Assembly: GCF_023699475.1 (NCBI RefSeq)
Contig: NZ_JALXFV010000007.1
Location: forward strand, 141,679-205,678
Length of the DNA stretch: 64,000 nt
Direction of reading: 5' to 3'
From: Halomarina rubra
GTDB lineage: Archaea > Halobacteriota > Halobacteria > Halobacteriales > Haloarculaceae
Position numbers and translations under genes: made by a program
Shown: positions 5,076 to 30,196 of the stretch, piece after piece
Numbering within the stretch: the stretch's first letter is position 1
Layout: every line of letters begins with the position of its first letter
Notes under the pieces: generated by a model
Seen by the model: the letters and a program-made list of their open reading frames with translations, nothing else
What the model was told of the DNA's origin: nothing
Databases searched by the model: none

Positions 5076-5984
5076 TCACTCCGCACCGAGGACGTGTTCG
5101 AGTCCCGCGGCTCTGCCCGTCACGTCGACGACGTTGCGGACGAGCGAGGCCATCGTCAGGGGTCCCACGCCACCGGGGACCGGGGTGATGGCGCTCGCCG
5201 GCTCGCGTGCGCTCGCCGCGTCGACGTCGCCGACGAGGTCACCGGAGGAGTCGCTGTCGTCGCTCTGGACCCTGGTCGCGCTGACGTCGACCACGACGAC
5301 CCCTTCTCCGAGCATCGACCCGTCGACGAGGCCCGGGTGGCCGGCGGCGGTGACGAGGACGTCGGCACGACGGGTGTGGGCCGTGAGGTCGGTGGTCGCC
5401 GTGTGACAGAGCGTCACCGTCGCGTCGCCGTCGGGGCCGTTGGCGGACAGCAGGGCCGCGAGCGGTCGGGCGATGACGGCGTCTCTGCCGACGACAACGA
5501 CGTCTCGGCCCGCGGTCTCGACGTCGTACTCGGCGAGCAGTCGCACGACGGCGGCCGCCGTCGCGGGGACGACGTGCGGGTCGCCCGCCACCAACCGTCC
5601 GAGGTTCTCCGGCGTGAAGCAGTCGACGTCCTTCCCCGCGGGAACGAGCGACCGGACCCGCTGCTCGTCGACGTGGTCGGGCAGCGGCACCTGGACGAAC
5701 AGCGCGGTCACGTCGTCGTCGGCTCTCAGCGACTCGACGGCGTCGTAACACCGCTCTGCGGGGGCATCGGCCGGGACGTCGACCCGCACCGTCTCGATAC
5801 CGAGCGAGGCACAGCGCTCGTGTTTCAGGTCCATGAACCGCCGCTGGGTCGGGTCGTCGGTCATCAACACCGTCCCGAGCGTCGGTACGACGTCGTGGTT
5901 CCGGAGCGTCGCCACGTCTCGCTCGACGGTCGCGGTGAGACGGTCTGCGAGCGGGCCGCCGGCCAGCATGGTCGGGTCCGTCAC
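5076..5984 (-). CDS. folD: Methylene-THF dehydrogenase/cyclohydrolase (FolD), divergent
   Basis: The 302-residue protein has the full FolD layout: an N-terminal catalytic domain with K54 (FMDLKHERC), Q98 (FVQVPLP) and D121 (KDVDCF), then a Rossmann domain and the terminal motif TPVPGGVGPLT. FolD converts 5,10-methylene-THF to 10-formyl-THF with NAD(P). The catalytic Lys, Gln and Asp are kept. The Tyr of the usual YxxxK motif is Phe50, and the nucleotide loop reads VVGRDAVIARP rather than GRSxxVGxP, so this is a divergent member whose two activities may differ from housekeeping FolD. Genes for Fhs, an MTHFR-like protein and GcvT-type methyl acceptors lie within 25 kb, which supports a role in catabolic C1 oxidation. 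Confidence 0.84.
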   Translation of the reverse strand: MTDPTMLAGGPLADRLTATVERDVATLRNHDVVPTLGTVLMTDDPTQRRFMDLKHERCASLGIETVRVDVPADAPAERCYDAVESLRADDDVTALFVQVPLPDHVDEQRVRSLVPAGKDVDCFTPENLGRLVAGDPHVVPATAAAVVRLLAEYDVETAGRDVVVVGRDAVIARPLAALLSANGPDGDATVTLCHTATTDLTAHTRRADVLVTAAGHPGLVDGSMLGEGVVVVDVSATRVQSDDSDSSGDLVGDVDAASAREPASAITPVPGGVGPLTMASLVRNVVDVTGRAAGLEHVLGAE

Positions 5985-6076
5985 GAGTTCTCGGTGTCGT
6001 CTCCGATGGCCCCCACCAAACCCTTTCGGGCGGCCCGCCGGTCAGATACTTGTCCGTGTAGAACCATGTGCGATTC

Positions 6077-6277
6077 ATGACTGGCGAGTGTTACTACTGC
6101 CACGGCATCGTGCTCCCCGAGGAACCGGGCGACGTCCTGCTGGCGGACCACGACGATCATCGGGTGTACCTGCACCTGGAGTGTGCGACCGGTCAGAACG
6201 TGGCCGAACCGGCCGACGAAGGCGGGGACCGACTCGCTATCACCTGTCCGGAGTGTGGCGTCGCGGAGACGCAGTGA
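6077..6277 (+). CDS. Small CxxC zinc-ribbon protein, 66 aa
   Basis: ATG 6077 opens a 66-residue protein with CYYCH at the N-terminus, a single Cys in HLECATG and CPECG near the C-terminus, a likely zinc ribbon. The protein is acidic with no membrane segment. A GTG nine bases upstream (6068) is an alternative start. The gene begins 92 bases from the divergent folD and runs convergently into the BCCT carrier. It is of a widespread haloarchaeal small-protein type without assigned function. Confidence 0.7.
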   Translation: MTGECYYCHGIVLPEEPGDVLLADHDDHRVYLHLECATGQNVAEPADEGGDRLAITCPECGVAETQ

Positions 6278-6290
6278 GCGTCCGGACGAG

Positions 6291-8147
6291 TCACTTCTCC
6301 TCGGGCGGGTCGACGTCGTGGTGGAGTTCGATGGCGGGGAGTCGCGACACCGCCCGTCTTGCGAGGGAGGTGTGACCCCCCTCGTAGCGGGCGAACGTCA
6401 GCGTCAGTCCACCGAGAGCGAACAGCGAGAGGACGGCGAACGGTCCGCCGGTCAACACGGCGAGCGCCTGGAGGGTCTCGACGCCACCCAACAGGAGCAC
6501 CGAGACGGCGACCGCCCCCTGGAAGACCCCCCAGAACACGATGGCCCCCGTCGTCGGTGCCAGTCCGCGGCGAGTCGCGAGCAACGCGGTGACGAGCGTC
6601 GAGACGTCCGCGGAGGTGACGATGAACACCACGATGAGCGCGAGGAAGAGGAAGGCGAGCAGGCCACCCAGCGGGAGGGCGTCGAACACGAGGAAGCCGA
6701 CCACGGCCTCGGCGTCGGAACGGCCGGCGACGGCAGCGAGGAGGTCCGTTCCGCCCACACGCTGGAGCCACAGCGACGTCCCCCCGAGCAGGAGGAACCA
6801 GCACATCGTCGCGGCCGACGTCGCGACGACGGTGGTGAACACGACCGTCCGGATGCGACGGCCCCGCGAGAGCGCCGCGACGAACAGCCCCGCGAACGGG
6901 GCCCAGGAGAACCACCACGACCAGTTCCACACCGTCCACGCGGCGATCCACGGGTCGCCGACGGTGAGGCTCAGCGGGACGAACCGGACGGCGTACTCAC
7001 TCAGCGCGCCGACGCCGCTCGTGAAGACGAACGACCGTGGCCCGACGGCGACGAGGATCAACGCGAACAGGCCGAACAGGACGACCGTGAGCCCTGCGAT
7101 GCGTCGAATTCCGCGGTGGACGCCGGTGACCGCCGAGAGGACGACCACGAGCGTCAGGCCGCCGACGAACACGACCGACCCGGTCCGGCCGGTCGAGACG
7201 CCCCACTCGAAGGTGATGCCGGCGAGGAACTGCTGGCTCACGAGCGCGACCGAGGTCGCGATGCCGCCGATGGTCGCGAACACCGCGAGCGTGTCGACGA
7301 GGCGACTCCACGGCGAGTCGAGGCCGTCGACGCCGACGAACGGCGCGAGGATGGTCGACACCCGCAGCGGTGCGCCGTGGCGGAACACGAAGTACGCGAT
7401 GGGGACGGCGATGACCGCGTAGGCGCTCCACGCCGAGAGGCCCCAATGGAAGAGGGCGTAGGTCAGCGCGCCACCCGCGGCCGCCGACGATTCGGGGGCG
7501 GCGTCGACGGTCGGCGGCGGTGTCCCGTAGTGGACCAGCGCCTCCGTCGGCCCCCAGAAGACGATGCCGGCGGCGATGCCCGCGGTGAACACCAGCGCGA
7601 AGTACGTCGGGTATGTGTACGTCGGGTCGGCGTCCGGGCCACCGAGTCGCACCTCGCCCCACGGTCCGACCAGCAAGAACAGGCAGTAACAGACCGCGAG
7701 GAACATCGCGCCGAGGAACACCGGCCCGCCACCGCGCAACACCGCCTGGGAGAGGCCGTCGACGGTCGCGTTCGTCCCCTGGGGGAACAGCGCCTGGAGA
7801 CAACAGAAGAGGGTGAAGACGGCGACGGGGACTCCGAGCACCACCGGGTCGTGGTGGGCGATGAACTCCCGGAGGGTCGCCCGTAGCGAGTGGTGACGGA
7901 TACGGAGGAGCGTGGGGACGGTCTCGCGGTCCGACACCGTTTCGGGGTACGGGAGCACGGCGAGGTAGCCCAGTCCCGACCCGAAGAACGTCAACGCGAC
8001 GACCAGCCAGACGGGGCCGTCGACGGCCCCCCCGACGACGTCGGGGAAGAAGAACCCGGCGACGACGACCGCTCCGGAGACTACGCAGAGGGGGAGCAAC
8101 AGGCCGGCCAGCACCCCTCCGGAGTCGTCGGTCACTGACCCGCTCAT
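6291..8147 (-). CDS. BCCT-family transporter, divergent
   Basis: This 618-residue polytopic membrane protein has about 12 hydrophobic segments and belongs to the betaine/choline/carnitine transporter family. The TM8 tryptophan motif reads WTVWNWSWWFSWAPF, with Asn where the usual motif has Tyr. The glycine motif in TM3 reads AGIAAGIVFWGPTEA in place of the usual GMGIGLMF, so substrate or ion coupling may differ from glycine betaine/Na+ carriers. The cytoplasmic N-terminus is short. The expected role is uptake of a quaternary-amine osmolyte. The gene lies 72 bases downstream of a potassium channel on the same strand but has its own TATA element, so it is probably transcribed alone. No long C-terminal osmosensing tail is seen. 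Confidence 0.86.
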   Translation of the reverse strand: MSGSVTDDSGGVLAGLLLPLCVVSGAVVVAGFFFPDVVGGAVDGPVWLVVALTFFGSGLGYLAVLPYPETVSDRETVPTLLRIRHHSLRATLREFIAHHDPVVLGVPVAVFTLFCCLQALFPQGTNATVDGLSQAVLRGGGPVFLGAMFLAVCYCLFLLVGPWGEVRLGGPDADPTYTYPTYFALVFTAGIAAGIVFWGPTEALVHYGTPPPTVDAAPESSAAAGGALTYALFHWGLSAWSAYAVIAVPIAYFVFRHGAPLRVSTILAPFVGVDGLDSPWSRLVDTLAVFATIGGIATSVALVSQQFLAGITFEWGVSTGRTGSVVFVGGLTLVVVLSAVTGVHRGIRRIAGLTVVLFGLFALILVAVGPRSFVFTSGVGALSEYAVRFVPLSLTVGDPWIAAWTVWNWSWWFSWAPFAGLFVAALSRGRRIRTVVFTTVVATSAATMCWFLLLGGTSLWLQRVGGTDLLAAVAGRSDAEAVVGFLVFDALPLGGLLAFLFLALIVVFIVTSADVSTLVTALLATRRGLAPTTGAIVFWGVFQGAVAVSVLLLGGVETLQALAVLTGGPFAVLSLFALGGLTLTFARYEGGHTSLARRAVSRLPAIELHHDVDPPEEK

Positions 8148-8170
8148 ACCGACATACTGGGCGTCGAACG

Positions 8171-8176
8171 ATAAAG
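8171..8176 (-). promoter_or_regulatory. TATA element of the divergent BCCT gene
   Basis: The minus strand reads CACTTTATCG with the AT core at 8171-8176. It is about 26 bases upstream of ATG 8147, which fits a leaderless haloarchaeal transcript. Confidence 0.55.
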
Positions 8177-8219: not shown

Positions 8220-9434
8220 TCAGGTGCGCTCCCCGGGGTCGGTGAACGGGTCGGGCGCACCCAGCACCGACGCGCCCAGCAGTTGCCCGCCGATGGTGAG
8301 CGGGTTGATGACCTCGTCGGCTCCGACCGACTCGAACTTCGCGACGTGTTTCTCCTCGTTGGCGGCGGCGACGACCCGCACGTCGGGGGCGAGACTCTTG
8401 ACCGCGAGGACGGCGAGCACGTCCCGCGCGTCGTCGTCGCTGGCGACGACGACTCCCGACGCGACGTCGACCCGGGCGTCTTCGAGGACCGCCTCGTCGG
8501 TCGGGTCCCCGGTGAGCACGTTCACCCCGTCGCGTTTGAGCGCCGCGGCGACGTCGGAGTCCGGGGTGACGACGAGGAACGTCGTCTCGCCGGTGAGTCT
8601 GTCGAGTACCGATTCCGTGATGTCGCCGTAGCCGAGGACGACGACGTGGTCGTCGAGGAGTGTGAGTTCTGAGGCGGTCATGCTTCCGAATGCGGCGGCC
8701 ATTCTGGCCTCGATGGCGGGTGCGACCAGCGCCCCGATGGCGACGGTGAACGCGCCGGTCCCGAACACGATGACCGACAGCGAGAACCACTGTGCCTCGG
8801 GGGTGGTCGGCGTGATGTCGCCGTACCCCACCGTCGCGATGGTGACGACGACGTAGTAGACGGCGTCCGCCCAGTCCTCAAGGCCGAGGAACTGGTCGCG
8901 GAGGCCGTACGCGCCCACCGTCCCGTACAGTCCCACGCCGACGATAGCCGCCAACGAGGCGACTTGGAGCGGCGAGAGTTCGACCCGTCGGTCGAACGCC
9001 TCGCGGTTGACGACGAGCAGCGGGAAGGTGACGACCAGCGCGAGGAGCAACGGGACGTCCGTCGGTTGGAGCGTCACGAGCGGGAGGAGCGCGAGCGCCG
9101 GCAGCGCCAGCATCGCCACCTGCCACGCGAGGCGTTTGCGCCGCTGGAGGCCGAGGGTGACGAGTCCGAGCATGAACGCGAAGAGGACCCCGGCGAACCG
9201 GACGAACACCGCTGCGTCGGGGACGACGGGCGCGAGCGGTCCGGCGAGCGCGAGCGTCTGCTCGCTCATGTTCGAGAGGCCGGTCACGAACGCGAGGAGC
9301 GCCACGACGCCGACGAGCCAGACGGTCGGTCGCGCACCCGAGAACTGCTCGCGCTCGACGAGCGCGACGCGTTCCGCCCGGTAGAACAGGGCCTCCAGCG
9401 CGCGGTCCTCGGACTCACCTTGCGAGCTATTCAC
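8220..9434 (-). CDS. Potassium channel with TrkA NAD-binding domain
   Basis: The protein is 404 residues from GTG 9434. The first ~180 residues contain several hydrophobic helices. They are followed by a pore loop with the K+ selectivity filter TIATVGYGDITP (residues ~198-209) and a last transmembrane helix. A TrkA-N/RCK-type Rossmann domain with VVVLGYGDITESVL starts near residue 265. The architecture is that of a ligand-gated K+ channel (KCH type) in the cytoplasmic membrane. A longer frame to 9536 adds an Arg- and Pro-rich tail with no family character, so 9434 is preferred. K+ is the main compatible ion of haloarchaea, and the position beside a BCCT osmolyte carrier supports a role in osmoadaptation. 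Confidence 0.85.
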   Translation of the reverse strand: MNSSQGESEDRALEALFYRAERVALVEREQFSGARPTVWLVGVVALLAFVTGLSNMSEQTLALAGPLAPVVPDAAVFVRFAGVLFAFMLGLVTLGLQRRKRLAWQVAMLALPALALLPLVTLQPTDVPLLLALVVTFPLLVVNREAFDRRVELSPLQVASLAAIVGVGLYGTVGAYGLRDQFLGLEDWADAVYYVVVTIATVGYGDITPTTPEAQWFSLSVIVFGTGAFTVAIGALVAPAIEARMAAAFGSMTASELTLLDDHVVVLGYGDITESVLDRLTGETTFLVVTPDSDVAAALKRDGVNVLTGDPTDEAVLEDARVDVASGVVVASDDDARDVLAVLAVKSLAPDVRVVAAANEEKHVAKFESVGADEVINPLTIGGQLLGASVLGAPDPFTDPGERT

Positions 9435-9643
9435 TACCAGACTGTTCGGGCAGGACGGACGAAAGGTCTTCCGCAGGGTCGACAGGAGGACGCCGGGAGA
9501 CTCAACACGAACTGCCGAGAACGGTCTGTCATGCACACAGTGACGAACACAACGGACCGGACGAGGCAGTCCAGTCGGCCGAAGCGACCGCGTGGCCGAC
9601 CACGGGTCGTATCGACGGCTCGGCGGTCGAGGGGTGTCGGCGC

Positions 9644-10096: not shown

Positions 10097-11821
10097 TCAG
10101 AACAGCCCCGAGATGTCGCCGTCGGCGTCGATGTCCATCCCGGCGGCCGCCGGGTCGCTCGGCAGGCCTGGAAGCGTCAGGACGTCGCCGGTGAGCGCGA
10201 CGAGGAAGCCCGCACCCGCGGAGGGGTACACCTCCCGAATCTCCAGTTCCCACCCCGTCGGCGCACCCTTCTTGCTCGCGTCGTCGCTGAGCGAGTGGAA
10301 CGTCTTCGACATACAGACCGGGAAGTCGCCGAAGCCCAGTTCCTCCATGCGCTCGATGTCGCGGTCCGCGCCACCGGTGTACTTCACGCCGTCCGCGCCG
10401 TACACCTCCGTCGCGACGGTGTGTATCTTCTCCTTGATGGAGTCCTCGTCTTCGTACAACGGGGCGTAGTCCGCCTCGCCGCTCTCGACGGCCTCGACGA
10501 CGCGTTCGGCGAGGTCCACACCACCTTCGCTCCCGTTCTCGAAGACCGTCGACTCGGCGGCGGCGACCCCCAGTTCGTCGCGACAGTGGTCGAGGACGAC
10601 GTTCACCTCCTCGTCGGAGTCGTCGGGGAAGCGGTTGACCGCGACGACGACCGGGACGCCGAACTTCTGGAGGTTCTCGACGTGCTTGTCGAGGTTCTCC
10701 AGACCGCGTTCGACCGCGCCCGTCCCGGCGGCGTCGATGTCGTCGTAGTCCGCGGGCCACATGTTCTCACCGTGGTACTTCAGCGCTCGGACCGAGGAGA
10801 CCAGTACGACGGCGTTCGGCTCCATCTCGCCGAGGCGACAGACGATGTTCAGGAACTTCTCCGCGCCGAGGTCCGACCCGAACCCGGCCTCGGTGACGAG
10901 GTAGTCGGCCATCCCGAAGGCGGCCTTGTCGGCCATCAGCGAGTTCGTCCCGTGGGCGATGTTCGCGAACGGGCCGCCGTGGACGAACGCGGGCGTCCCC
11001 TCGATGGTCTGGACGACGTTCGGTTTGATGGCGTCGCGCAGGAGCATCGTCACCGCGCCCGTCGCCTCGATGTCGTCGACGGTAATCGGCTCACCGTCGG
11101 TGTCGTAGGCGACGATGATGCGTGCGACGCGCTCTTTGAGGTCTCCGAGCCCGCTCGCCATGCAGAGGACGGCCATCAGTTCGGAGGCCGCGGTGAGCAG
11201 GAACTGGTTCTCGCGTGGCGTCCCGCCGGTCTTCCCGCCGAGGCCGACGACCGTCTCCCTAAGGACGCGGTCGTTCATGTCGATAGCTCGCGGCCAGGAG
11301 ACGTCGTTGACGTCGATGTCGAGTTCGTCGCCCTGTGATATCTTCGCGTCGAGCATCGCCGCGATGAGGTTGTGCGCCGAGGTGAGCGCGTGGAGGTCGC
11401 CTGTGAAGTGGAGGTTGATCTCCTCCATGGGGAGGACCTGCGAGCGACCGCCACCAGCGGCCCCACCCTTTACGCCGAACACGGGCCCGAGCGACGGTTC
11501 ACGGATGGCAATCATCGCCTCCTCCCCGATGTGGTTCAACGTCTGGCCCAGGCCGACCGTCGTGACGGTCTTCCCCTCGCCCTTCGGCGTCGGCGTCATG
11601 CCCGTCACGAGGACCAGGTTGTTCGGTCGGTCTTCGGCCTGCTCGCGGAGGCGGTCGATGGCGTCGTGTTTCACCTTCGCGGTGTACGAGCCGAAGTACT
11701 GCAGGTCATCGAGACCGAGACCCCACGGCTCGACCAGTTCCCAGATCGGTTCCATCTCCGTCGACTGCGCGATCTCGTAGTCCGTCGGAAGCGGCCCGTC
11801 GACCTCGTTCGGTGGTGTCAT
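10097..11821 (-). CDS. fhs: Formate-tetrahydrofolate ligase
   Basis: The 574-residue protein is full length for the family. It has the nucleotide-binding loop TPTPKGEGKT (residues ~76-85), the LGPVFGVKGGAAGGG region and the conserved KPNVVQTIEGTPAFVHGGPF and NIAHG segments. The enzyme interconverts formate, THF and ATP with 10-formyl-THF. In a catabolic setting the reverse direction releases formate and regenerates ATP. It is on the same strand as folD and the two dehydrogenase-GcvT fusions but is not contiguous with them. The start at ATG 11821 is preceded by a purine-rich stretch. Together with FolD and the MTHFR-like protein it completes the C1 oxidation branch of this window. Confidence 0.93.
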   Translation of the reverse strand: MTPPNEVDGPLPTDYEIAQSTEMEPIWELVEPWGLGLDDLQYFGSYTAKVKHDAIDRLREQAEDRPNNLVLVTGMTPTPKGEGKTVTTVGLGQTLNHIGEEAMIAIREPSLGPVFGVKGGAAGGGRSQVLPMEEINLHFTGDLHALTSAHNLIAAMLDAKISQGDELDIDVNDVSWPRAIDMNDRVLRETVVGLGGKTGGTPRENQFLLTAASELMAVLCMASGLGDLKERVARIIVAYDTDGEPITVDDIEATGAVTMLLRDAIKPNVVQTIEGTPAFVHGGPFANIAHGTNSLMADKAAFGMADYLVTEAGFGSDLGAEKFLNIVCRLGEMEPNAVVLVSSVRALKYHGENMWPADYDDIDAAGTGAVERGLENLDKHVENLQKFGVPVVVAVNRFPDDSDEEVNVVLDHCRDELGVAAAESTVFENGSEGGVDLAERVVEAVESGEADYAPLYEDEDSIKEKIHTVATEVYGADGVKYTGGADRDIERMEELGFGDFPVCMSKTFHSLSDDASKKGAPTGWELEIREVYPSAGAGFLVALTGDVLTLPGLPSDPAAAGMDIDADGDISGLF

Positions 11822-15604: not shown

Positions 15605-15610
15605 GACCCC

Positions 15611-16054: not shown

Positions 16055-16143
16055 CGTTGACACCTACGGACTGTTCCGAACGACGAATGATATATGTTAC
16101 CACGAGATTGACCGTCGAGTCGGTGGGTCCCGGTCCGACGTGA

Positions 16144-20170: not shown

Positions 20171-22744
20171 TCAGTCGACCAGCGGTTCCTCGCGGACGGT
20201 AGCGGCGTAGTGCTCGCCCTCGTAGCGGATCTCCAGTTCCGTGCCTGGTTCGGCGTACTCCGGGGGCAGGTAGGTGTAGACGACGCACGCGCCGACGGTG
20301 TAGCCGTACTCGGCGCTGTGGACGTAGCCGATGGGGTCGCCCTTGTGGAGCACCGGTCGGCCGGCCATGACGACGGCTTCGGGGTCGTCGAGCGTCAGGC
20401 AGGCGACTTTCGTCGAGATGTCGTCGCCCGCGGCGGCCGCCGCGACGGCCTCCTTGCCGATGAAGTCGGTGTCGAGGTCGACGGCCCACCCCAGTCCGGT
20501 CTCGTAGGGGTTCTGTTCGGTGTCGAGGTCGACCCCCCACAGTCGGAACCCCTTCTCGATGCGTAGCGCGTTCAGCGCACCGTTGCCGTACGGCCGGAGG
20601 CCGTGGTCCTCGCCCGCTTCCAGCAGGTGTCGCCAGAGCGTCTCGCCGTACTCCGAGGGGGTGTACAGCTCCCACCCGAGTTCACCGGCGTAGGAGACCC
20701 GGAGTGCGGTGACGGGTACGTTCCGGACGTAGAACTCCTGGCTGGTGAAGAACGGGAACGCCTCGTCGGAGAGGTCGACGTCGGTGACCTCCGAGAGGAC
20801 GTCGCGAGCGTTCGGCCCCGTACAGACCATCGCGGCCATGCTGGAGGTGACGTCGTTGACGACGACACCCTCCGGCGCGTGGTCGCGGACCCACGCGACG
20901 TGGTTGTTCCCGACCTCCCGACCCGTCGTCAACAGGAGGTAGCGATTCTCGTCGGTGCGCGTGACGGTGATGTCAGCACGGACGCCGCCGGCCTCGTTGC
21001 ACATCAGCGTGTAGCGCACCCGACCGACGTCGATGTCCATGTCGTTCGTACAGAGACGCTGGACGAACGCGCCGGCGTCGGGGCCGACCACCTCCATCTT
21101 GTTGAACGAGGTCATGTCGTGGAGGCCGACGTTCTCACGGACGTTGAGCGCCTCCACGCCCTCGATGGGTGACCAGTAGACGGCCTCCCAGCCCTCGCGC
21201 TCGGGGATGCGGTCGCGATACCGCTCGACGAGGTCGGCGTTGGAGTCGAACCACTGTGGCACCTCCCAGCCGGCTTCCGCCCACAGTTCGGCGTCCAGTT
21301 CGACGTGGCTGTGGTACATCGGCGTCCGCCGGATGTCGCGCTGTTTGCCCTCCCAGACCCACTTGGGGTGCATGACGTTGTAGACGATGCGGTACTCCTC
21401 GCCACCGATGTCGCGGGTGAACTCCCAGCTCCCCTCGTGTTCGTCGAACCGGTTGACGTCGGCGTGGGCGAGGTCGATGGGACCGTCGGGGAGGCGCGGC
21501 GTCCCGTTGACCATCCACTCTGCGAGCGCCTTCCCGGCCCCGCCGGCGTGGGTGATCCAGATGGCCGCCGCGGTCCAGAGGCCGTCGAACCCTTCGACGG
21601 GACCCATGACGGGAAGGCCGTTGGGCGACTCCGCGAACATCCCGTTGTACTTGTACTCCAGGTCCTTGCCCGCCGTGGCGGGGATGAGTTCGTCGCTGGC
21701 CTGTCGAGGTGACTTGTCCGGACGGTCGGGGTGGGTGGCTTCGTCCATGAACCGCTCGGTGAAGTCGTGGACCGACGCCTGGTTGCCCTCGGGGTCGTTC
21801 CCCCCGAGGTCCTCCGGGTTCGGCACGACCGGGTCGTGGTTGTACGACCCGATGCCGTAGGAGTCACCGTGCGTGCGATAGTACATCGCGTTGTCCTGGT
21901 CGCGGAGGATGGGCCGGTCGGGAGCAGCGAGCAGCCGCTCGGCCTTCTCGCCGGAGACGTTCTCGTAGTTCTCGTAGAGGGGGTGGCCGGTGACGTCGAC
22001 GGCGTTGTCCGCGAGTTCGGCGAGCGGTTCGGTCATCGTGTACTGGTGTTCGACCGGCGCGACCGGGAGGTGGACGCCGAGTTTCTCGCCGAGTTGGCGC
22101 GCCCAGATGTTCGTCGCGACGACCACCTCCTCGCACTCGATGCGGCCGTTCTCGGTGACGACGGCCCGAACGGAGCCGTCGGCGACCTCGACGTCCTCCG
22201 TCCGAGTGTGGGGGACGAACGCCGCACCGCGGTCCATCGCCGCGCGCGCGAGCGCGTCACACGCCACGACGCCCGAGGCCTGGCCGTCGGTGGGGGAGTA
22301 GTACCCGCCCAGAATCCGGTCGGCGTCGACCAGCGGGAGGTGGTCCGTGACTTCCTCGGGCGAGAGCACCTGCGGGTCGTCGATGCCCCACGCCAGCGCG
22401 TTCTCGACGCGCCGTTCGAGGAACGCCATCCGTTCGTCGGTGCGGGCGACCTCGATACCCCCGACCTCGCGGTACGCCTGCTGGCCGTCGGCACCTTCGA
22501 GGTCGGAGTAGAGCTGACGGCTGTAGTCGGCGAACTTGGTGAGGATCTTGTCTTCGGCGGTCTGGAACATGATGCCCGGCGCGTGGGTCGAAGAGCCGCC
22601 AGTCGTGGGCATCGGCCCCTGGTCGACGACGACGACGTCCTCACGGCCCATCTCCGTCAACTGGTAGGCGACGTTACAGCCGACGATACCGGCTCCGACG
22701 ACGACGGTCGACGCCTCCGTCGGCAGGCTGTCGGTCGATTGCAT
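20171..22744 (-). CDS. FAD-dependent dimethylglycine/sarcosine dehydrogenase-GcvT fusion (copy 2)
   Basis: The protein is 857 residues from ATG 22744. The same frame continues upstream to 22957, but that part is Arg-rich and lacks homology. It has the same architecture as copy 1: a FAD motif VVVGAGIVG, the putative covalent-FAD His H54 in GGSSTHAPG, an oxidase domain to about residue 450, and a C-terminal GcvT/T-protein region with LHDMTSFNK and GGVRADITV. The two copies align throughout but differ in substrate-side regions such as the inserts around residues 260-330. This suggests division of labour, for example dimethylglycine versus sarcosine. The product carbon would enter the THF pool as methylene-THF. 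A divergent HTH gene begins 254 bases upstream. Confidence 0.86.
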   Translation of the reverse strand: MQSTDSLPTEASTVVVGAGIVGCNVAYQLTEMGREDVVVVDQGPMPTTGGSSTHAPGIMFQTAEDKILTKFADYSRQLYSDLEGADGQQAYREVGGIEVARTDERMAFLERRVENALAWGIDDPQVLSPEEVTDHLPLVDADRILGGYYSPTDGQASGVVACDALARAAMDRGAAFVPHTRTEDVEVADGSVRAVVTENGRIECEEVVVATNIWARQLGEKLGVHLPVAPVEHQYTMTEPLAELADNAVDVTGHPLYENYENVSGEKAERLLAAPDRPILRDQDNAMYYRTHGDSYGIGSYNHDPVVPNPEDLGGNDPEGNQASVHDFTERFMDEATHPDRPDKSPRQASDELIPATAGKDLEYKYNGMFAESPNGLPVMGPVEGFDGLWTAAAIWITHAGGAGKALAEWMVNGTPRLPDGPIDLAHADVNRFDEHEGSWEFTRDIGGEEYRIVYNVMHPKWVWEGKQRDIRRTPMYHSHVELDAELWAEAGWEVPQWFDSNADLVERYRDRIPEREGWEAVYWSPIEGVEALNVRENVGLHDMTSFNKMEVVGPDAGAFVQRLCTNDMDIDVGRVRYTLMCNEAGGVRADITVTRTDENRYLLLTTGREVGNNHVAWVRDHAPEGVVVNDVTSSMAAMVCTGPNARDVLSEVTDVDLSDEAFPFFTSQEFYVRNVPVTALRVSYAGELGWELYTPSEYGETLWRHLLEAGEDHGLRPYGNGALNALRIEKGFRLWGVDLDTEQNPYETGLGWAVDLDTDFIGKEAVAAAAAGDDISTKVACLTLDDPEAVVMAGRPVLHKGDPIGYVHSAEYGYTVGACVVYTYLPPEYAEPGTELEIRYEGEHYAATVREEPLVD

Positions 22745-22783: not shown

Positions 22784-22998
22784 TACCGCCGGCACCGACC
22801 GCCCTCCTCGACGCCTCCGCCAGCCGACGCGTCGAGTTGTGCCCGTGCGAGACCGAGTCCGGGAACCGCACGTCGGTGACCTCTTTCCTCGACCGGTCCG
22901 ACGACCGACGGACTGGACCCGTGCGGCCGCCTCTTGAAGGGGTTCGGTAGTCACCACGTAGCCTTATCAACCACAACGTGTCACATGCCAACATAGCT

Positions 22999-24117
22999 AT
23001 GGGGCTCCGAACCTCGTTCGATATCCTCGCCCGTGTCGTCGAGGAGTTCGAGTCGCGTGGACAGTCCGTCCGCGACCTCGAAGTGAGAACCGTCGACGCG
23101 GGGACGGGACGGCTCGAGGCGACGCTCCAGCTTCCGGTGTCGTTCTGTCCGGCACCCGATGCGAGTCGCGGGGTCACGCTGGAACCGAGAGCGGCGACAC
23201 CGACCGAGACGGCCGGCGTCAGCATCGAGTTCTCGACGCCCGTGCTCGACGAACTCGACGACGAGTTGGCGGACGCGGTGTCTGCCTCCGTCGAGGAGAC
23301 GGTCGTCACGGGAGCCGACGTCGTGTTGACTGTCGCGCTCCGTGTCGACCCCGCGGACGTGGGGACACCCGAACAGCCAGGAGGCGTGTCCGCCGACCGT
23401 GTCGCCGACGCCGTCGAACCGGCGGCACCCGAACAGACGCCGAGCGTCGAGACGGCGGTCGAAGGGGAGTCTGACGAGACGGAACCGAACGCGGAGACGG
23501 GCGACGGCGACACGACCGTCAGCGCGGGACCGCCGACCCACGACGATCCGCTCGTCGAACGCCTCGAGGCGGTTCGAGACGAGTCACGACCGCCGTACGA
23601 GGACACGCCGTTCCTCCAGGAGCTGTACACGTCGTGTGACACGTTCGCCGAGATGAACCGCTATCTCGGGATGGACGTCTCGACGGAGACGGTACGTCGG
23701 TACATGATCGACGCGGGCGTTCACACCGCCGCCTCGTACGCGACGAGAGACGGTGACGGCCCCGAGAACACCCGTCGGCCTGCCGAGGACGCCGCCACGA
23801 ACGGGACGGACCTCGACGCTGCGTCGGCCCGACTCCACCCGCACGACGTCGAGGCCGTCGCGAGACGGCTCCCGGAGGGGGTCACCGTCGACGACCTCGT
23901 CGACGCCGTCCTCGCGTCGGCGACCGTGTACCAAGTCCAGCGACGACTCGACCTCGACCGACGGACGACGAAGCGGTTGCTCGACGACCTCGACCTCCTG
24001 GAGTTCGTGCTCCACCGAATCGGGGGCGAGCACCGGCGGGAGTACTCCACGGAGGACCTGCTCGAACGTATCGAGCGGTCGTCGGCCCCCGCGAACGACG
24101 ACCCCTCCGTCGTTTAA
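22999..24117 (+). CDS. Putative HTH transcriptional regulator, divergent from the dehydrogenase genes
   Basis: This acidic protein is 372 residues from ATG 22999 (GTG 22978 is also possible). The N-terminal ~120 residues form a compact domain starting GLRTSFDILARVVEEFE. A low-complexity acidic linker follows to about residue 200. There are two helix-turn-helix-like segments: FAEMNRYLGMDVSTETVRRYM near residues 220-240, and ATVYQVQRRLDLDRRTTKRLL near residues 315-335. The general type occurs in haloarchaea without a named family I can give. Its position divergent from dehydrogenase copy 2 and directly before the MTHFR-like gene makes it the natural local regulator of the demethylation genes. 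A TATA-like CCTTATC sits at about 22963-22969. Confidence 0.7.
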   Translation: MGLRTSFDILARVVEEFESRGQSVRDLEVRTVDAGTGRLEATLQLPVSFCPAPDASRGVTLEPRAATPTETAGVSIEFSTPVLDELDDELADAVSASVEETVVTGADVVLTVALRVDPADVGTPEQPGGVSADRVADAVEPAAPEQTPSVETAVEGESDETEPNAETGDGDTTVSAGPPTHDDPLVERLEAVRDESRPPYEDTPFLQELYTSCDTFAEMNRYLGMDVSTETVRRYMIDAGVHTAASYATRDGDGPENTRRPAEDAATNGTDLDAASARLHPHDVEAVARRLPEGVTVDDLVDAVLASATVYQVQRRLDLDRRTTKRLLDDLDLLEFVLHRIGGEHRREYSTEDLLERIERSSAPANDDPSVV

Positions 24118-24175: not shown

Positions 24176-25030
24176 ATGTCCCTGGAGTCGTCGGTCGCCG
24201 ACACAGCGGGCGTCGGGGAGCTCCTGACGAACGCTCGGTTCGAGTTGATGCCGTTCGAGAGCTTCGACGAGGAGATAACGTACCTGCCCGAGGACGCGAC
24301 CATCGCCATCACGACGTCGCCACAGTTGGGTATCGAACGGACCGTCGAGCGGTCAGAACAGGCCGCCGCGGCCGGGTTCGACGTCTCGCCGCACATAGCG
24401 GCCCGCTACGTCACCGACCGTGACCACCTCGACGACATCGCCGGGCGGTTGGTCGACGCCGGCATCACCGACGTGTTCGTCCCCGGCGGTGACCGCGAGG
24501 AACCCGCCGGCGAGTTCGAGTCGGCGTACGACCTGCTCGCGGCGCTCGACGACCTGGGCTACGACTTCGCGGAGGTCGGCATCACCGGCTACCCCGAGGG
24601 CCACGCGTTCATCGACGAGCAGACGCTCGCCGACTCGATGCAACAGAAGCTCCCCTTCGCGACGTACGTCGTCACACAGCTCTGTTACGACCCCGAGGCA
24701 ATCGTCGACTGGGTCGAGACGCTCCGAGAGCGCGGCGTCGACCTGCCGGTCGAGGTCGGGATTCCCGGCGTGATGAAGTACCAGCGCCTGCTGAAGATCT
24801 CTCAGAAGGTCGGTGTCGGCGACTCCGTGAAGTTCCTGCAGAAGACGACCGGCATCGTCGGGTTCGTCAAACAGCTCGTCGGTTCGCGAGGCACCTACAC
24901 GCCCGACGACCTCGTCGACGGACTCGCACCGTACGCGACCGACGACGCCTACGGCATCAGCGGCCTCCACATCTACACGTTCAACGAGACCGCCGACACA
25001 GAGGAGTGGCGACGCGGACGGCTCTCCTGA
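24176..25030 (+). CDS. Methylenetetrahydrofolate reductase-like protein
   Basis: This 284-residue TIM-barrel protein of the MTHFR family keeps the three active-site positions of MetF: Glu in RFELMPF (E23), Asp in VPGGDRE (D106) and Gln in VVTQLCYD (Q168). The last ~60 residues (VGSRGTYTPDDLVDG, then GLHIYTFN) complete the barrel as in MetF. The enzyme interconverts methylene-THF and 5-methyl-THF using FAD. Next to demethylases it would most usefully run in the oxidising direction, feeding methyl groups taken by the DmdA-like enzyme into FolD. It is 58 bases downstream of the HTH regulator gene on the same strand. A standard role in methionine synthesis cannot be excluded, but no methionine synthase is near. 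Confidence 0.82.
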   Translation: MSLESSVADTAGVGELLTNARFELMPFESFDEEITYLPEDATIAITTSPQLGIERTVERSEQAAAAGFDVSPHIAARYVTDRDHLDDIAGRLVDAGITDVFVPGGDREEPAGEFESAYDLLAALDDLGYDFAEVGITGYPEGHAFIDEQTLADSMQQKLPFATYVVTQLCYDPEAIVDWVETLRERGVDLPVEVGIPGVMKYQRLLKISQKVGVGDSVKFLQKTTGIVGFVKQLVGSRGTYTPDDLVDGLAPYATDDAYGISGLHIYTFNETADTEEWRRGRLS

Positions 25031-25134: not shown

Positions 25135-26352
25135 GTGTCCCCCGACACCGACTCCCCTCCCGACTCGTTCTACAGCCTGCTCGTGGTGGGCAGTAGTCTC
25201 CTGGGTGCGTTCACCCTCGCGGAGACGACGGGCGACGTGTTCGCGATGTACCTCAGCGCTGAGGCGTTCGGTCTCGCCGTCGCGGTCGCCTACGGCGTCC
25301 TCGCGTGGGCGTTCCTCGAACGCGTCGACCCGAACCGGCGGGACTTCCTCACGACCGCCATCGGACTCCCGGTCGTGTTCTTCTTCGTCGTCCCGCTGCT
25401 CACGCTGGTCGGCCACGGAGAGACGGCACTCTACCTCTTCGGCGACCGCACCTCCGTCAGTTCCGATACCATCGGCGGGCTGTTCTTCTTCGTCGTCGCG
25501 TTCGGTGTCGCGGGCGTCGCCGCGACGCGCGTCTCGGAGGCGGTCCACCGTTACGTCGACGGGCGTTCTCACCGCCCGAGTGCGCGGACGCTGGCCACCG
25601 CGTCGGTCACGCTGCTCGGCGTCGCTGCGCTCGGGCTGGTCGTCGCGAACCACGCCGCCGCCGGTTCCGTCGCGGTGGCGGACCTCGGGATGGAGCGCGG
25701 TTCCGCCGACGCTGGCCGACCAGCACCGTCCCTCGACGTCACGCTCGAAGGCGGTCCAGCGACCGTCAGGGTGCACGTCACCGACCCCGACGGCAACCGG
25801 TTCACCGAACGACTCTCCCGCGGCGCGCTCGCCGACGGGACGGAGACACTCTCGTTCGGCCTCCACACGAGTCGTCAGGACCGCCTCACGCTCACACCCG
25901 GAGAGTACCGGGTCACCGTCACCACCGCGAGCGGTGCGACCGTGAGCGACCGAACCTACAGTCTCGACCCGGTGTCGCTCGACTCGGGAGGGTTCGTCGC
26001 CGAGGCGGAGGCAGACCGGGGTGAGTACGGATGGTCGGTGAACGAGTCGCGGTCGGCCGTCGGGACCGACGGGACCGTCGTCGTCGTGGTCGAGAACCCC
26101 GCCGGCGATCGGGGCGACACGAACGTCGGACTGCTGGGAGCCGACGGGACCGTGCTCGACGAGTACGGCCTCCGAATCTCGCCGTACGACCGCTTCGGGG
26201 TCGTCCTCTCACTCTCGGACGACGAACTCGCAACCGTCGACGAACGCGCCGACGGGCGAGCGGTGGTCCGAGTGAGTCGCGACGGCGAGACGGTCCTCGA
26301 AGTCCCGATAGCGGTTCCCGAGCCCGGCTCGACCAACGAGAGCAGTCCGTGA
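25135..26352 (+). CDS. Membrane protein with extracytoplasmic Ig-like region
   Basis: This 405-residue protein starts at GTG 25135. The first ~185 residues contain about five membrane helices (SLLVVGSSLLGAFTLAETTG through VTLLGVAALGLVVANHAAAG). The C-terminal ~200 residues are acidic and rich in beta-type repeats, with two Ig/CARDB-like units (PSLDVTLEGGPATVRVHVTD, and VVVVENPAGDRGDTNVGL), likely outside the cell. The architecture recalls haloarchaeal DUF5305/DUF7490-like surface proteins, but no exact family is recognised. It follows the MTHFR-like gene by 104 bases on the same strand. Confidence 0.66.
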   Translation: MSPDTDSPPDSFYSLLVVGSSLLGAFTLAETTGDVFAMYLSAEAFGLAVAVAYGVLAWAFLERVDPNRRDFLTTAIGLPVVFFFVVPLLTLVGHGETALYLFGDRTSVSSDTIGGLFFFVVAFGVAGVAATRVSEAVHRYVDGRSHRPSARTLATASVTLLGVAALGLVVANHAAAGSVAVADLGMERGSADAGRPAPSLDVTLEGGPATVRVHVTDPDGNRFTERLSRGALADGTETLSFGLHTSRQDRLTLTPGEYRVTVTTASGATVSDRTYSLDPVSLDSGGFVAEAEADRGEYGWSVNESRSAVGTDGTVVVVVENPAGDRGDTNVGLLGADGTVLDEYGLRISPYDRFGVVLSLSDDELATVDERADGRAVVRVSRDGETVLEVPIAVPEPGSTNESSP

Positions 26353-26509: not shown

Positions 26510-27886
26510 TCACCTGTCTGCCGGCGGGACGTTCTGGTTCGACCGGAACAGGTTCTCGGGGTCCCACCGTGCTTTCACCCTGGCGAGGCGCTCGTAGTTG
26601 TCGCCGTAGGCGGCACGAACACGGGCACTGGGTTCGTCGTCGGTGAGGAAGTTCATCGCCGCGCCGTCGGTCGTGTACGGTGTGAGCGCCTCGTGGAACG
26701 CTCGGACCCAGGAGACGTGTTCGTCGTCACGGTCCGGCGAGTCCCACCGCGCTTCGACGAGGAGGTGGTGACAGTCCTCGCGGTGCGGGTAGGCCGTCGG
26801 GTCCGACGGCGGGTCGGTCTCGGCCCCGCTTCGCGGCGAGACGAAGACGGTCGCCCCCGGCGAGGGAGCCTTCCCGACGAACTGTTCGACGACGGCCAGC
26901 GCGTCGTCCGAGAGCGTCGAGAGGTACTGTGTCCGGAGGGTCGTCCGCATCGGCCCGCCGCTGTCGCCGGCCCGCTGGAACGCGGTGTAGGGACGTTCCC
27001 GGAGACTGTCGACGAGCGGCGTGTCGAACTCGCGGAGCGGCGCGAGCACCTCGCGACCCTCGTCGGCGGGGCCGGCGTAACAGCAGATGAGGATACTCAC
27101 ACGCGAGTCGCGGACCGACTCGGGGAAGTACGAACTGTCCGGGAGCGTCATCGACCCGAACAGGACCCTGACCTCGCGTGGTGCGTCCGCCACGAACGAC
27201 TCGTAGCGCTTCGCGACCGACCGGAGGTCGTCCGTCGGGTAGACGAGCGACCCCGCGAACACCCGGTCGACCGGGTGCAGTCGGAACTCGAAGGCGGTGA
27301 CGATGCCGACGTTCCCACCACCGCCACGGAGCGCCCAGAACAGGTCGGGGTTGTCGCCCTCGCTCGCGCGGACGAGTTGTCCGTCAGCCGTGACCACGTC
27401 GGCACCCAGCAGGTTGTCGCTCGTGAGGCCGTACTTCCGGCTGAGCCAACCGACGCCGCCCCCGAGCGTCAACCCTGCGACACCGATGTTCGGGTCCTGT
27501 CCGCCCGGCACCGCTCGGCCGAACGCCGCGGTCTCGTGGTCGACCTGCCCCCAGGTCGCCCCCGGCCCGACGCGGACCCGCTCCGCACCGGGCGCGACAG
27601 CGACGTCGTCCATCGGTCCGAGGTCGAGGAGCAACCCTTCGTCGGGGACCGCACACCCCGAGACGTGGTGGCCACCGCCTTTCACCCCGAGCGTCAGGTC
27701 GAACTCGCGGGCGGTCTCGACGCCGGCGACGACGTCCGCCGCGCCGACACAGCGGAGGACGAGGTCCGGTCGGCTGTCGACCATCGCGTTCCAGACACCC
27801 CGTGCGTCGTCGTAGCCCGGGTCGGACGGGTCGAGGACGTCGCCGCGAGCGCGTTCGCGAAGCACCGCGTCCGGTGGCTCGGTCAT
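26510..27886 (-). CDS. FAD-binding oxidoreductase, berberine-bridge (BBE) type
   Basis: This 458-residue flavoprotein has a PCMH-type FAD domain with the conserved VKGGGHHVSGCAV (His as candidate 8-alpha-FAD link), then the phosphate-binding loops GVAGLTLGGGVGWLSRKYG and LFWALRGGGGNVGIVTAFEF. The BBE tail is YGDNYERLARVKARWDPENLFRSNQN. Family members oxidise alcohols, sugars or amines with O2 as acceptor, and the substrate is unknown. ATG 27886 is preferred. GTG 27910 is in frame. It is 115 bases downstream of the DmdA-like gene on the same strand. Co-transcription is plausible, so it may process a product of that enzyme. Confidence 0.88.
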   Translation of the reverse strand: MTEPPDAVLRERARGDVLDPSDPGYDDARGVWNAMVDSRPDLVLRCVGAADVVAGVETAREFDLTLGVKGGGHHVSGCAVPDEGLLLDLGPMDDVAVAPGAERVRVGPGATWGQVDHETAAFGRAVPGGQDPNIGVAGLTLGGGVGWLSRKYGLTSDNLLGADVVTADGQLVRASEGDNPDLFWALRGGGGNVGIVTAFEFRLHPVDRVFAGSLVYPTDDLRSVAKRYESFVADAPREVRVLFGSMTLPDSSYFPESVRDSRVSILICCYAGPADEGREVLAPLREFDTPLVDSLRERPYTAFQRAGDSGGPMRTTLRTQYLSTLSDDALAVVEQFVGKAPSPGATVFVSPRSGAETDPPSDPTAYPHREDCHHLLVEARWDSPDRDDEHVSWVRAFHEALTPYTTDGAAMNFLTDDEPSARVRAAYGDNYERLARVKARWDPENLFRSNQNVPPADR

Positions 27887-28001
27887 CCGTTCCCCCTCGG
27901 AGTCCGCCACCGAGCGACGGTGCTCTCGGAGGGGACTGGTCGACTCACTGGTGAGCGTTCGGTCATCGGTGGTGTCGAAAGAATCGTCGGTCGGTGAGCG
28001 G

Positions 28002-29375
28002 TCAGTCGTCGTTGGCGTCCTGGCGGGCGTGGAGCTTCGCCTGCTCGCGGGCGCTCGGGTTGACGGACTCCTTGAACGGCACCTCGGCGACGGTGGCGTA
28101 CACCGGTTCGCCGGTCTCTTCGGCGTACTCGTCGGGGAGGTGAACTTCGAACTCGATGTCGAGGTCCTCCTCGTAGATTTCGTCGTCGAGGGTGGCGTCG
28201 GTCTCGGCCTGGAGTTTCTCGGCCGGGACGAACCCGAGGCCGATGTTCGTCTCCAGGTCCGGGTTCCACCATGGCGAGGTCATGTAGCCACACTCCTCAC
28301 CGGTTTCGGGGTCCGAGACGATCCAGAAGTCCGGTGCGTAGTCCCGGATGGGTTCGCCGGCCATCTTCAACCCGACGAGTTTCAGGCTGAACGGGTACTC
28401 GCCGTCCTCGATGAGCGCCTGCTGGCGTTCCAGCTCCTCCTTGCCGATGTAGTCGCCCTCCTTCCCGCTGGGGACCTGGTAGCCGAGGTTGACCTGGAAC
28501 GGCGAGGTCTCGTGGTCCATGTCCTGGCCCCACGAGAGAATACCCGCCGCGATACGGCGGTGGTGGCCCGGTGCGATCTGCATCCCGCCGTGCTCTTTGA
28601 CCGTCTCCAGAACGGGATCCCAGACGCGTTCTGCGTTCTCCATCGCGTCCTTGACGTATATCTCGAAGCCCTTCTCGCCGGAGAACCCGGTCTGACTGAC
28701 CAGTACCTCCGCGCCGTTCACTTCGGCATCCATCAGCCCGTAGTACGGGATGTCGCTGACCTCCTCGCCGACGACCTCGCGCATCACGTCCTCGGAGAGC
28801 GGTCCCTGAATCTGCATCGGCGCGACGTCAATCTCGTCGATCTCGACGTCGAAGTCCATCCCGACGTTGACGCCCTGGAGCCACTGCATGAGCGTCGAAT
28901 CGGAGATGGAGAACCAGAACTCGTCCTCGGCGACGCGGAGCAACACGGGGTCGTTGAGGATGCCGCCGTTCTCGTTACAGAGGATGACGTACTTCCCGTG
29001 CATCGGTTCGATCTTCGTCGCGTCGCGGGTGATGACGTAGTCGGTGAGCGCCTCGGCGTCGGGCCCCTTGACGCGAATCTGGCGCTCGACGGCGACGTCC
29101 CACAGCGTCACCTTCTCGGTCAGCGCCTCGTACTCGGCCATCGCGCCGCCGTCTTCCGGTTCGACGAGTCCGCGCGGGTGGTAGATGCGGTTGTACACCG
29201 TACAGCGCCAGGCCCCCTCCTCGTTGAACGACTTGTGGAAGAACGGCGATTTCCGCACGCGCGTCGAGACCAGCATCCGGATACCCGGGTCGCCACTCTG
29301 TCTGAGGTTCCGTGGCAACACGCGGTCGGACTGGTCGACCGACGGGTGATTCGGGTGCTCGTTGTTGTCTGACAT
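28002..29375 (-). CDS. DmdA-like GcvT-family tetrahydrofolate methyltransferase
   Basis: This is a 457-residue single-domain GcvT-family protein with no FAD domain. Segments CTVYNRIYHPRG, LTEKVTLWDVAVERQIRVKG (residues ~85-104), GGILNDPVLLR, FWFSISDSTLMQ and FDVEIDEIDVAPMQIQGP follow the DMSP demethylase DmdA order closely. DmdA moves a methyl from a sulfonium directly to THF, yielding 5-methyl-THF rather than methylene-THF. The protein is longer than the ~370-residue marine DmdA because of a ~30-residue N-terminal tail and C-terminal inserts. With an MTHFR-like gene, FolD, Fhs and BCCT carriers close by, it is a good candidate for DMSP or glycine-betaine demethylation. Which substrate cannot be read. 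TATA at 29401-29407 makes it leaderless. A Bat-type regulator lies immediately upstream. Confidence 0.8.
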   Translation of the reverse strand: MSDNNEHPNHPSVDQSDRVLPRNLRQSGDPGIRMLVSTRVRKSPFFHKSFNEEGAWRCTVYNRIYHPRGLVEPEDGGAMAEYEALTEKVTLWDVAVERQIRVKGPDAEALTDYVITRDATKIEPMHGKYVILCNENGGILNDPVLLRVAEDEFWFSISDSTLMQWLQGVNVGMDFDVEIDEIDVAPMQIQGPLSEDVMREVVGEEVSDIPYYGLMDAEVNGAEVLVSQTGFSGEKGFEIYVKDAMENAERVWDPVLETVKEHGGMQIAPGHHRRIAAGILSWGQDMDHETSPFQVNLGYQVPSGKEGDYIGKEELERQQALIEDGEYPFSLKLVGLKMAGEPIRDYAPDFWIVSDPETGEECGYMTSPWWNPDLETNIGLGFVPAEKLQAETDATLDDEIYEEDLDIEFEVHLPDEYAEETGEPVYATVAEVPFKESVNPSAREQAKLHARQDANDD

Positions 29376-29400
29376 ACCTCGAAATGTCGCTTCCACTCAC

Positions 29401-29407
29401 ATATAAA
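29401..29407 (-). promoter_or_regulatory. TATA element of the DmdA-like gene
   Basis: The minus strand reads CGTTTATATG, about 29 bases upstream of ATG 29375. The spacing fits a leaderless transcript. Confidence 0.6.
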
Positions 29408-29437
29408 CGAGGTCGTTAAGAATAGATGGTATTTTTA

Positions 29438-29452
29438 TGCCACCGAGTGGCA
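29438..29452. promoter_or_regulatory. Inverted repeat TGCCAC-CGA-GTGGCA upstream of the DmdA-like promoter
   Basis: The perfect six-base arms lie about 35 bases upstream of the TATA element, the usual place for an activator site in haloarchaea. A shorter version of the same palindrome precedes the MTHFR-like gene. The Bat-type regulator next door is a candidate ligand. Confidence 0.5.
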
Positions 29453-29536
29453 CGCCGCGATGGCGTCTCGGTGGTTCATCCGACAGGTGTCTCGGAAGAC
29501 GGCCCCCTTGTGTGACGGGGCCGTGATGGGACGGCC

Positions 29537-30196
29537 TCACTCGCGGCGGCGGTTCTCGGCGATGGTCGCGGCGATGAGGTTGCGGATGCCACGACGGAGT
29601 CGCCCGCTCACCGCCGTCGAGGAGAGGTCAAGTTCGTGGGCGATCTCGTCAAGGGAGGCTTCGCGCGGGGCCCGGAAGTAGCCACGGTCGAACGCGAGCA
29701 ACAGCGTCGACCGCTGCTGGTCGGTGAGTCCGTAAGACGACTGCCCGCTCGCGTCCTCGTTGCCGTAGATCTCGATGATGTCGAAGGAGATGTCGTGTTG
29801 GTTGGCGTACGTCCAGATATCGTTGAGCGCCGCCCGGTCCGGGAGGAGCAGGCGGACGAACCAGCCGCCGTCGGTCGTCTCAGTGTGCATGAGGAAACCG
29901 TTGGCCTCCGTCACGACGGTGCTGATGAGCTTCGTCTCCGGGGCGTGTTCGATGTAGTAGATGCCCTGGTCGTCCGTCCAGTCGACGAGGCTGTAGGATT
30001 CGACCGTCGGGTCGTCGTCGAACGCTGCTTCCAGTTTCGCTCGGTCCGTGTACTCGACGAGGAACGGGAACATCGTCGACCCCGGACTCGTGTTCCCCTG
30101 CGGTATCACCCGAATCGCGACGTCGTCGAGACGCCGGAGTGTCGGGACGAGAGCGAGCCTGTCGTGGCGGATGTGTATCGTTGCGGTTATCGACAT
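29537..30196 (-). CDS. Bat-type HTH-10 transcriptional regulator
   Basis: This 219-residue protein starts at ATG 30196 (the in-frame start at 30211 is less likely). Residues ~1-150 form the bacterio-opsin-activator-associated sensory domain (SITATIHIRHDRLALVP at the start). The last ~55 residues are an HTH-10 domain (YGLTDQQRSTLLLAFDRGYF, then SLDEIAHELDLSSTAVSGRL). Such regulators act as local activators in haloarchaea. It ends 161 bases upstream of the DmdA-like gene in the same orientation, and a palindrome lies between them, so control of that gene is likely. The sensed ligand is unknown. Confidence 0.88.
   Translation of the reverse strand: MSITATIHIRHDRLALVPTLRRLDDVAIRVIPQGNTSPGSTMFPFLVEYTDRAKLEAAFDDDPTVESYSLVDWTDDQGIYYIEHAPETKLISTVVTEANGFLMHTETTDGGWFVRLLLPDRAALNDIWTYANQHDISFDIIEIYGNEDASGQSSYGLTDQQRSTLLLAFDRGYFRAPREASLDEIAHELDLSSTAVSGRLRRGIRNLIAATIAENRRRE

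Follow-up and report, generated by a model that had tools for sequence, protein, structure and literature searches.

A haloarchaeal gene cluster for probable glycine betaine demethylation, with a DmdA-like protein as candidate first enzyme

Introduction

How could a haloarchaeon take the first methyl group off glycine betaine when its genome matches none of the enzyme families searched for that step? In saline waters, glycine betaine ranks among the major osmolytes. The question of how aerobes remove its first methyl received a partial answer in 2025, with the description of a cobalamin system in marine bacteria; the same paper gives GbcAB, BHMT and the cobalamin-dependent MtgBCD as the known first steps (PMC12478193). 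The initial annotation of this locus noted that haloarchaea are mainly described as storing betaine, but that picture needs qualifying: as early as 2011, the use of betaine, dimethylglycine or sarcosine was suggested for four haloarchaea, with DMGO-like genes near BCCT genes (PMC3102087).

The cluster that raises this question spans positions 5076–30211 of the window, the whole 64,000-nucleotide stretch of DNA that was analysed, which is part of contig 14 of a 4.07 Mb haloarchaeal genome. This genome has no match to Ring_hydroxyl_A (PF00848) in a family search, no match to a Haloarcula Rieske protein used as query, and none to the MttB family (PF06253) or to the S-methyltransferase family PF02574, which includes BHMT. 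The lack of a Rieske oxygenase and of BHMT, noticed at first within the cluster, therefore holds genome-wide.

Organization and conservation of the cluster

Genes were called by Pfam and NCBIfam scans, which recovered every gene named initially: two BCCT carriers, a DmdA-like protein, two FAD-GcvT fusions, an MTHFR-like protein, FolD, Fhs, a deaminase and two regulators. Coordinates below are on the minus strand unless stated otherwise. The importers are a BCCT protein of the betaine/carnitine/choline family (12776–14536; PF02028, 587.5 bits), which among NCBIfam models scores highest with that for glycine betaine BCCT (514.7 bits vs. a cut-off of 650), and a second BCCT copy (6291–8147; PF02028, 424.6 bits). 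The DmdA-like gene, whose product belongs to the GcvT family (28002–29375; GCV_T, 151 bits) and is the proposed glycine betaine:tetrahydrofolate (THF) methyltransferase, likely starts at an internal ATG at 29375. Upstream of it lies the gene for a BAT/HTH_10 (bacterio-opsin-activator-type) regulator (29537–30211; PF04967, PF15915).

The fusion genes FG_A (20171–22744, probably starting at an internal ATG at 22744, to judge from orthologues) and FG_B (17448–19997) share one strand with a threonine/serine ammonia-lyase gene (16144–17397; TIGR01127, 443 bits, cut-off 378.75), for the conversion of serine to pyruvate, and with a universal stress protein (Usp) gene (15611–16063; PF00582). The gaps between them are of about 50–175 bases, and the run looks like a single operon. 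Two genes have the opposite orientation to this run: on the plus strand, Reg1 (22978–24117) encodes a regulator-like protein with no Pfam match, and is followed by the MTHFR-like gene (24176–25030), the product of which is the proposed methyl-THF oxidase. Homologues of Reg1, at 30–42% identity, are found in DmdA-type as well as in Rieske-type clusters. The remaining genes encode the formate-THF ligase Fhs (10097–11821; NCBIfam NF010030), a K+-channel/TrkA-N protein (8220–9536; PF02254, PF07885) and FolD2 (5076–5984; PF02882/PF00763), a divergent second paralogue of the FolD family and the proposed CH2-THF dehydrogenase/cyclohydrolase.

Conservation was assessed at 46 haloarchaeal loci in which the DmdA-like orthologue has 10 kb of flanking sequence on each side. 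The MTHFR-like gene is present at 39 of these, the BAT regulator at 29, an FAD-GcvT fusion at 25, a BCCT gene at 23, the deaminase at 22, FolD at 19, Fhs at 15 and a serine hydroxymethyltransferase (SHMT) gene at 12, while the Usp and K+-channel genes lie nearby at 13/46 and 12/46. The cluster is not due to chance. De novo clustering of neighbours also brought out, besides SHMT, creatininase-family genes, two molybdopterin proteins of the formate-dehydrogenase type, a fusion of folC with folP, and a chorismate-binding enzyme accompanied by a glutamine-amidotransferase-like gene. On plasmid pNG700 of Haloarcula marismortui, a single cluster includes DHFR, folP and Fhs.

Two genes within the span were considered as pathway members and set aside, those of a membrane protein (25135–26352) and of a berberine-bridge-like oxidase (26510–27910), each of which is a conserved neighbour at none of the 46 full-flank loci. 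Elsewhere in the window, an ArcD-type arginine/ornithine antiporter that scores over its NCBIfam cut-off (31933–33417) adjoins the conserved cluster without belonging to it, and a peptide-use region (41424–43205, 47444–48865, 50062–51807, 53707–55656 and 57342–61754) holds three M28 peptidases, an M20 peptidase and an oligopeptide ABC transporter.

A DmdA-like protein outside the DmdA clade

Like DmdA (PDB 3tfh), to which it is 32% identical, the DmdA-like protein is a member of the GcvT-type family, and THF would be its methyl acceptor too. In the alignment with 3tfh, from which residue numbers are taken, it retains the folate- and catalytic-site residues N148, D149, P150, E245 and Y247, but R194, W197 and K199 are replaced by Q, F and G. 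DmdA itself forms 5-methyl-THF by a redox-neutral transfer (PMC5395565). The DmdA model (NF009133) is the top-scoring NCBIfam model for the window's protein, at 244.8 bits, under the equivalog cut-off of 410. In a maximum-likelihood tree, the haloarchaeal and SAR86 proteins form a clade of their own (UFBoot 90), the sister clade (UFBoot 100) contains all sampled DmdA together with bacterial DmdA-like proteins, and GcvT falls outside both. With a score under the cut-off and a position outside the DmdA clade, identity with DmdA was rejected. An AlphaFold model based on a 20-sequence alignment reached a mean pLDDT of 57, too low for a fold search.

Might the enzyme demethylate DMSP or another sulfonium compound, in a cluster that merely groups functions for methylated osmolytes? 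The top rank of the DmdA model points that way, as does the sister clade, which holds DmdA and a 35%-identical relative from Marivivens that lies within a dmdBCD operon and makes a sulfonium substrate conceivable; BCCT carriers, moreover, can transport DMSP. We nevertheless regard this reading as improbable. Apart from the low score and the separate clade, no dmdB, dmdC or dmdD was found among the recurrent neighbours of the DmdA-like gene in the clustering of haloarchaeal loci, and the gene takes the place of a GbcA-like oxygenase next to DMGO-type enzymes (see below). A 2020 study also assigned the haloarchaeal homologues to a “non-DmdA” group with F instead of the key W of the DMSP site (PMC7487153); this is W171 of that paper, which by its numbering should correspond to W197 of 3tfh. 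The substitution was not accepted as proof against DMSP, since the DmdA of Phaeobacter inhibens carries Tyr at the same position. Of the two substrates first put forward, betaine is much likelier than DMSP because the partners are of the dimethylglycine-oxidase type and no dmdB/C/D genes recur nearby.

In a homology search with the DmdA-like protein as query, most matches were haloarchaeal loci (77–90% identity in the best segment), joined by SAR86-type bacteria at 65–67%. SAR86 marine bacteria (L074–L085, on SAR86 and related contigs) have orthologues at 65–68% identity, and no C1 genes were recognised alongside in these neighbourhoods. In Haloarcula hispanica, which gave no Rieske hit, an orthologue is encoded on plasmid NC_015944 (226338–227723). 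Orthologues also occur in J07HQW1 and J07HQW2, two genomes assigned to Haloquadratum walsbyi; betaine gave this species no growth enhancement (PMC3102087), which counts against a betaine reading. In SAR11, a DmdA paralogue adjoins metF (SAR11_1265/1264), and its substrate was unknown as of 2011 (PMC3160333).

Other arrangements of such genes were met along the way. The DmdA-like gene is duplicated in tandem at two loci (L032:9980–13195 and G175:C114:105229–108414), the second copy being about 70% identical to that of the window. On a plasmid of Lichenihabitans psoromatis (L090:5136–11227), a bacterial DmdA-like gene lies beside an MTHFR gene (product 28% identical to the window's MTHFR-like protein), purU, folD, an FAD oxidoreductase and an aminotransferase, and these genes are another putative folate demethylation module. 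On Roseobacter-group plasmids (L087, L088, L109), a DmdA-like gene is part of a fixed operon with genes for an Lrp regulator, an OsmC family protein, an enoyl-CoA hydratase and an acyl-CoA synthetase.

The FAD-GcvT fusions

FG_A and FG_B both match dimethylglycine oxidase (DMGO) 1pj5, their closest solved structure, over the full length (563 and 561 bits, respectively). They share with DMGO, DMGDH and SARDH the domain order DAO-FAO_M-GCV_T-GCV_T_C, and the DMGO catalytic residues are conserved: in the alignment to 1pj5, equivalents of His48, His225, Tyr259 and Asp552 are present in both fusions. We take the His to bind FAD and the Asp to belong to the folate site, the latter being the site of the Ala variant 3gsi. 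Unlike these known enzymes, the window has two paralogues side by side, and their proposed substrates, whether they act as oxidases or as dehydrogenases, are dimethylglycine and sarcosine.

A probable route from methyl-THF to formate

The MTHFR-like protein is a distant member of PF02219 (52 bits). Against solved structures, it scores 111 bits with 7xg9, 52 bits with the MTHFR-like 8uy2, and at most 35 bits with classical single-domain bacterial MTHFRs. The first of these, 7xg9, is presumably the methyl-THF-oxidising MTHFR of Sphingobium SYK-6. An MTHFR subfamily that runs in reverse, and that evolved together with a demethylase dependent on THF, is described in this organism (PMC13001107).

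MTHFR normally serves biosynthesis. If this were also true here, the MTHFR-like and DmdA-like proteins would supply methyl-THF to make methionine or for methylation of another kind, and the role of the cluster would be C1 biosynthesis instead of betaine catabolism, a reading with which the folate-biosynthesis genes near some clusters would agree. We hold it to be very unlikely: the MTHFR-like gene is missing from about three quarters of haloarchaeal genomes and is therefore not a core biosynthetic function; its product is closest to an MTHFR of probably catabolic type; and the gene is always accompanied by the DmdA-like gene, and in most cases by fusions, deaminase and importers.

Fhs is over its equivalog cut-off (799 vs. 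652 bits), and the window's FolD is below those of FolD (309 vs. 477 bits). Throughout the FolD2 group to which it belongs, Phe replaces the canonical Tyr and the Lys is kept, and the cyclohydrolase activity of FolD2 may differ from the canonical one. Neighbourhoods hold either canonical FolD (ETYVSMK..., KPCTP, GRSDIVGKP) or FolD2 (ERFMDLK..., VPATP), sometimes both; besides that of the window (5076–5984), FolD2 copies near DmdA-like or MTHFR-like genes are those of L033, L039, L044, L050, L055, L059, L061 and L065. A formate dehydrogenase over its cut-off is encoded on contig 10 of the window's genome, outside the cluster.

Exchange with a Rieske oxygenase

Five proteins were looked for across one set of 194 haloarchaeal genomes, with a 250-residue piece of FG_B as the fusion query and the pNG700 protein as the Rieske query. 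The DmdA-like protein was found in 45 genomes, the MTHFR-like in 47, the Rieske protein in 27, the fusion in 57 and Fhs in 66. Among the 57 fusion-bearing genomes, 30 have the DmdA-like gene only, 17 the Rieske gene only, nine both and one neither, so that 56 of 57 carry the DmdA-like gene and/or the GbcA-like Rieske gene. The MTHFR-like gene accompanies the DmdA-like gene in 45/45 genomes vs. 0/17 Rieske-only ones, and Fhs in 43/45 vs. 1/17; within fusion genomes, the corresponding figures with and without the DmdA-like gene are 39/39 vs. 0/18 for the MTHFR-like gene and 37/39 vs. 1/18 for Fhs. Six DmdA-like genomes have no fusion at E<=1e-50. With genomes treated as independent, Fisher's test gives p = 3.7e-42 for the DmdA-like with the MTHFR-like gene and 3e-15 within fusion genomes. 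DmdA-like genomes are spread over 20 genera and Rieske-only ones over eight; in two genera that have members of either kind (g20 and g26), the MTHFR-like gene again tracks the DmdA-like one, a pattern that reduces but does not abolish the concern that these p-values take no account of shared ancestry.

The Rieske-type regions contain fusions, usually with the deaminase, and some of them BCCT, SHMT or Reg1 homologues; no DmdA-like or MTHFR-like gene was found in those fetched. Several Rieske-only genomes have a single fusion, 44–51% identical to FG_B. In G074, G125 and G126, by contrast, the Rieske gene is accompanied by true orthologues of both FG_A and FG_B. The Rieske protein's top NCBIfam model is GbcA, at 132 bits, far under the cut-off of 670, and its GbcA function is for that reason also an inferred one. 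In haloarchaeal fusion clusters, its alpha subunit gene is always beside that of a small conserved protein of about 120 aa, which matches no family and may be its partner (L091:28076–29592; also L033, L066, L076, L093–L098 and L105–L107).

Taken together, the exchange between DmdA-like and Rieske genes and the co-occurrence with MTHFR-like and Fhs genes make the DmdA-like enzyme most likely to perform the step of GbcA; the distribution of the MTHFR-like and Fhs genes is as expected if both enzymes make dimethylglycine and only the DmdA-like route yields methyl-THF, and so needs an MTHFR. The two genes are not strict alternatives, since nine genomes have both; in H. marismortui pNG700, the Rieske alpha subunit gene is located between two fusions in the same cluster as the DmdA-like gene.

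These nine genomes would seem redundant if both enzymes only made dimethylglycine, and could mean that the DmdA-like enzyme uses another methylated amine, either a different betaine or dimethylglycine itself, to feed the fusions, with an unrecognised enzyme taking the first betaine methyl. Creatininase-family genes near some clusters likewise hint at other sarcosine precursors. Such an arrangement strikes us as unlikely, if slightly less so than a sulfonium substrate. Thirty fusion genomes have the DmdA-like gene without a Rieske match, an additional demethylase would be required in the window's genome, where the Rieske, MttB and BHMT families are missing, and oxygen-dependent and oxygen-independent routes could coexist in one genome. 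On balance, we lean toward a direct GcvT-family glycine betaine:tetrahydrofolate methyltransferase, independent of O2 and cobalamin, common to haloarchaea and SAR86, interchangeable with the Rieske route, and representing a fourth kind of betaine demethylase.

Proposed pathway and its meaning

The cluster as a whole probably serves to import glycine betaine and to demethylate it completely, with the DmdA-like protein making the first step. This reading is built on gene content, conservation, co-occurrence and substitution pattern, from which substrate, direction and all activities are inferred. Glycine betaine would be taken up by the BCCT carriers, and the DmdA-like protein would then transfer a methyl group from the quaternary nitrogen to tetrahydrofolate, in a reaction that needs neither oxygen nor cobalamin and yields dimethylglycine and 5-methyl-THF. 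Oxidation of 5-methyl-THF to 5,10-methylene-THF would fall to the MTHFR-like protein, and the two proteins together would do the work of the GbcA-like Rieske oxygenase in other haloarchaeal clusters. The fusions would oxidise dimethylglycine to sarcosine, then sarcosine on to glycine, with methylene-THF formed at both steps. Surplus methylene-THF could be turned by FolD and by Fhs, running in reverse, into formate and ATP, and the formate could be oxidised by the dehydrogenase encoded outside the cluster. SHMT would combine glycine and methylene-THF into serine, from which the ammonia-lyase would make pyruvate.

Folate-linked demethylation and C1 oxidation of a methylated osmolyte, the core of the initial annotation, is thus strongly supported: the DmdA-like and MTHFR-like genes travel together, replace the Rieske gene and share its downstream genes. 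Its description as “complete” goes too far, since SHMT joins the cluster in relatives alone, the formate dehydrogenase is encoded elsewhere in the genome, and the local FolD is divergent. Comparative evidence favours a first step unlike those of known betaine pathways, yet other haloarchaea do have a Rieske oxygenase in the equivalent cluster.

A literature search, which left most subscription journals outside its reach, turned up no account of a betaine demethylase that depends directly on folate, and such a first step appears to be new. If the proposal is true, it adds a fourth route of betaine demethylation, turns many haloarchaea from presumed hoarders into consumers of betaine that conserve energy through Fhs, suggests a betaine role for a conserved gene of the abundant SAR86 marine bacteria, and corrects labels like “glycine cleavage system protein T” in databases.

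Comparison with known systems

DmdA comes with dmdBCD partners, which the DmdA-like gene of the window lacks. The Rieske glycine betaine monooxygenase GbcA/GbcB catalyses the step proposed for the DmdA-like enzyme, and its putative counterpart in other haloarchaea has the same downstream genes. It is however an unrelated protein that needs O2 and releases formaldehyde, and it needs no MTHFR; in Rieske-only genomes, none was found. MtgB-MtgC-MtgA/MtgD and BHMT remove the first methyl non-oxidatively, as proposed here, and the Mtg systems also end in methyl-THF; these are cobalamin-dependent, whereas the proposed DmdA-like reaction would need no separate corrinoid carrier. In Sphingobium SYK-6, LigM/DesA and MTHFR resemble the window's pair in joining a GcvT-family demethylase to a methyl-THF-oxidising MTHFR (PMC13001107), although LigM and DesA act on aromatic methoxyl substrates and belong to a separate branch of the GcvT family.
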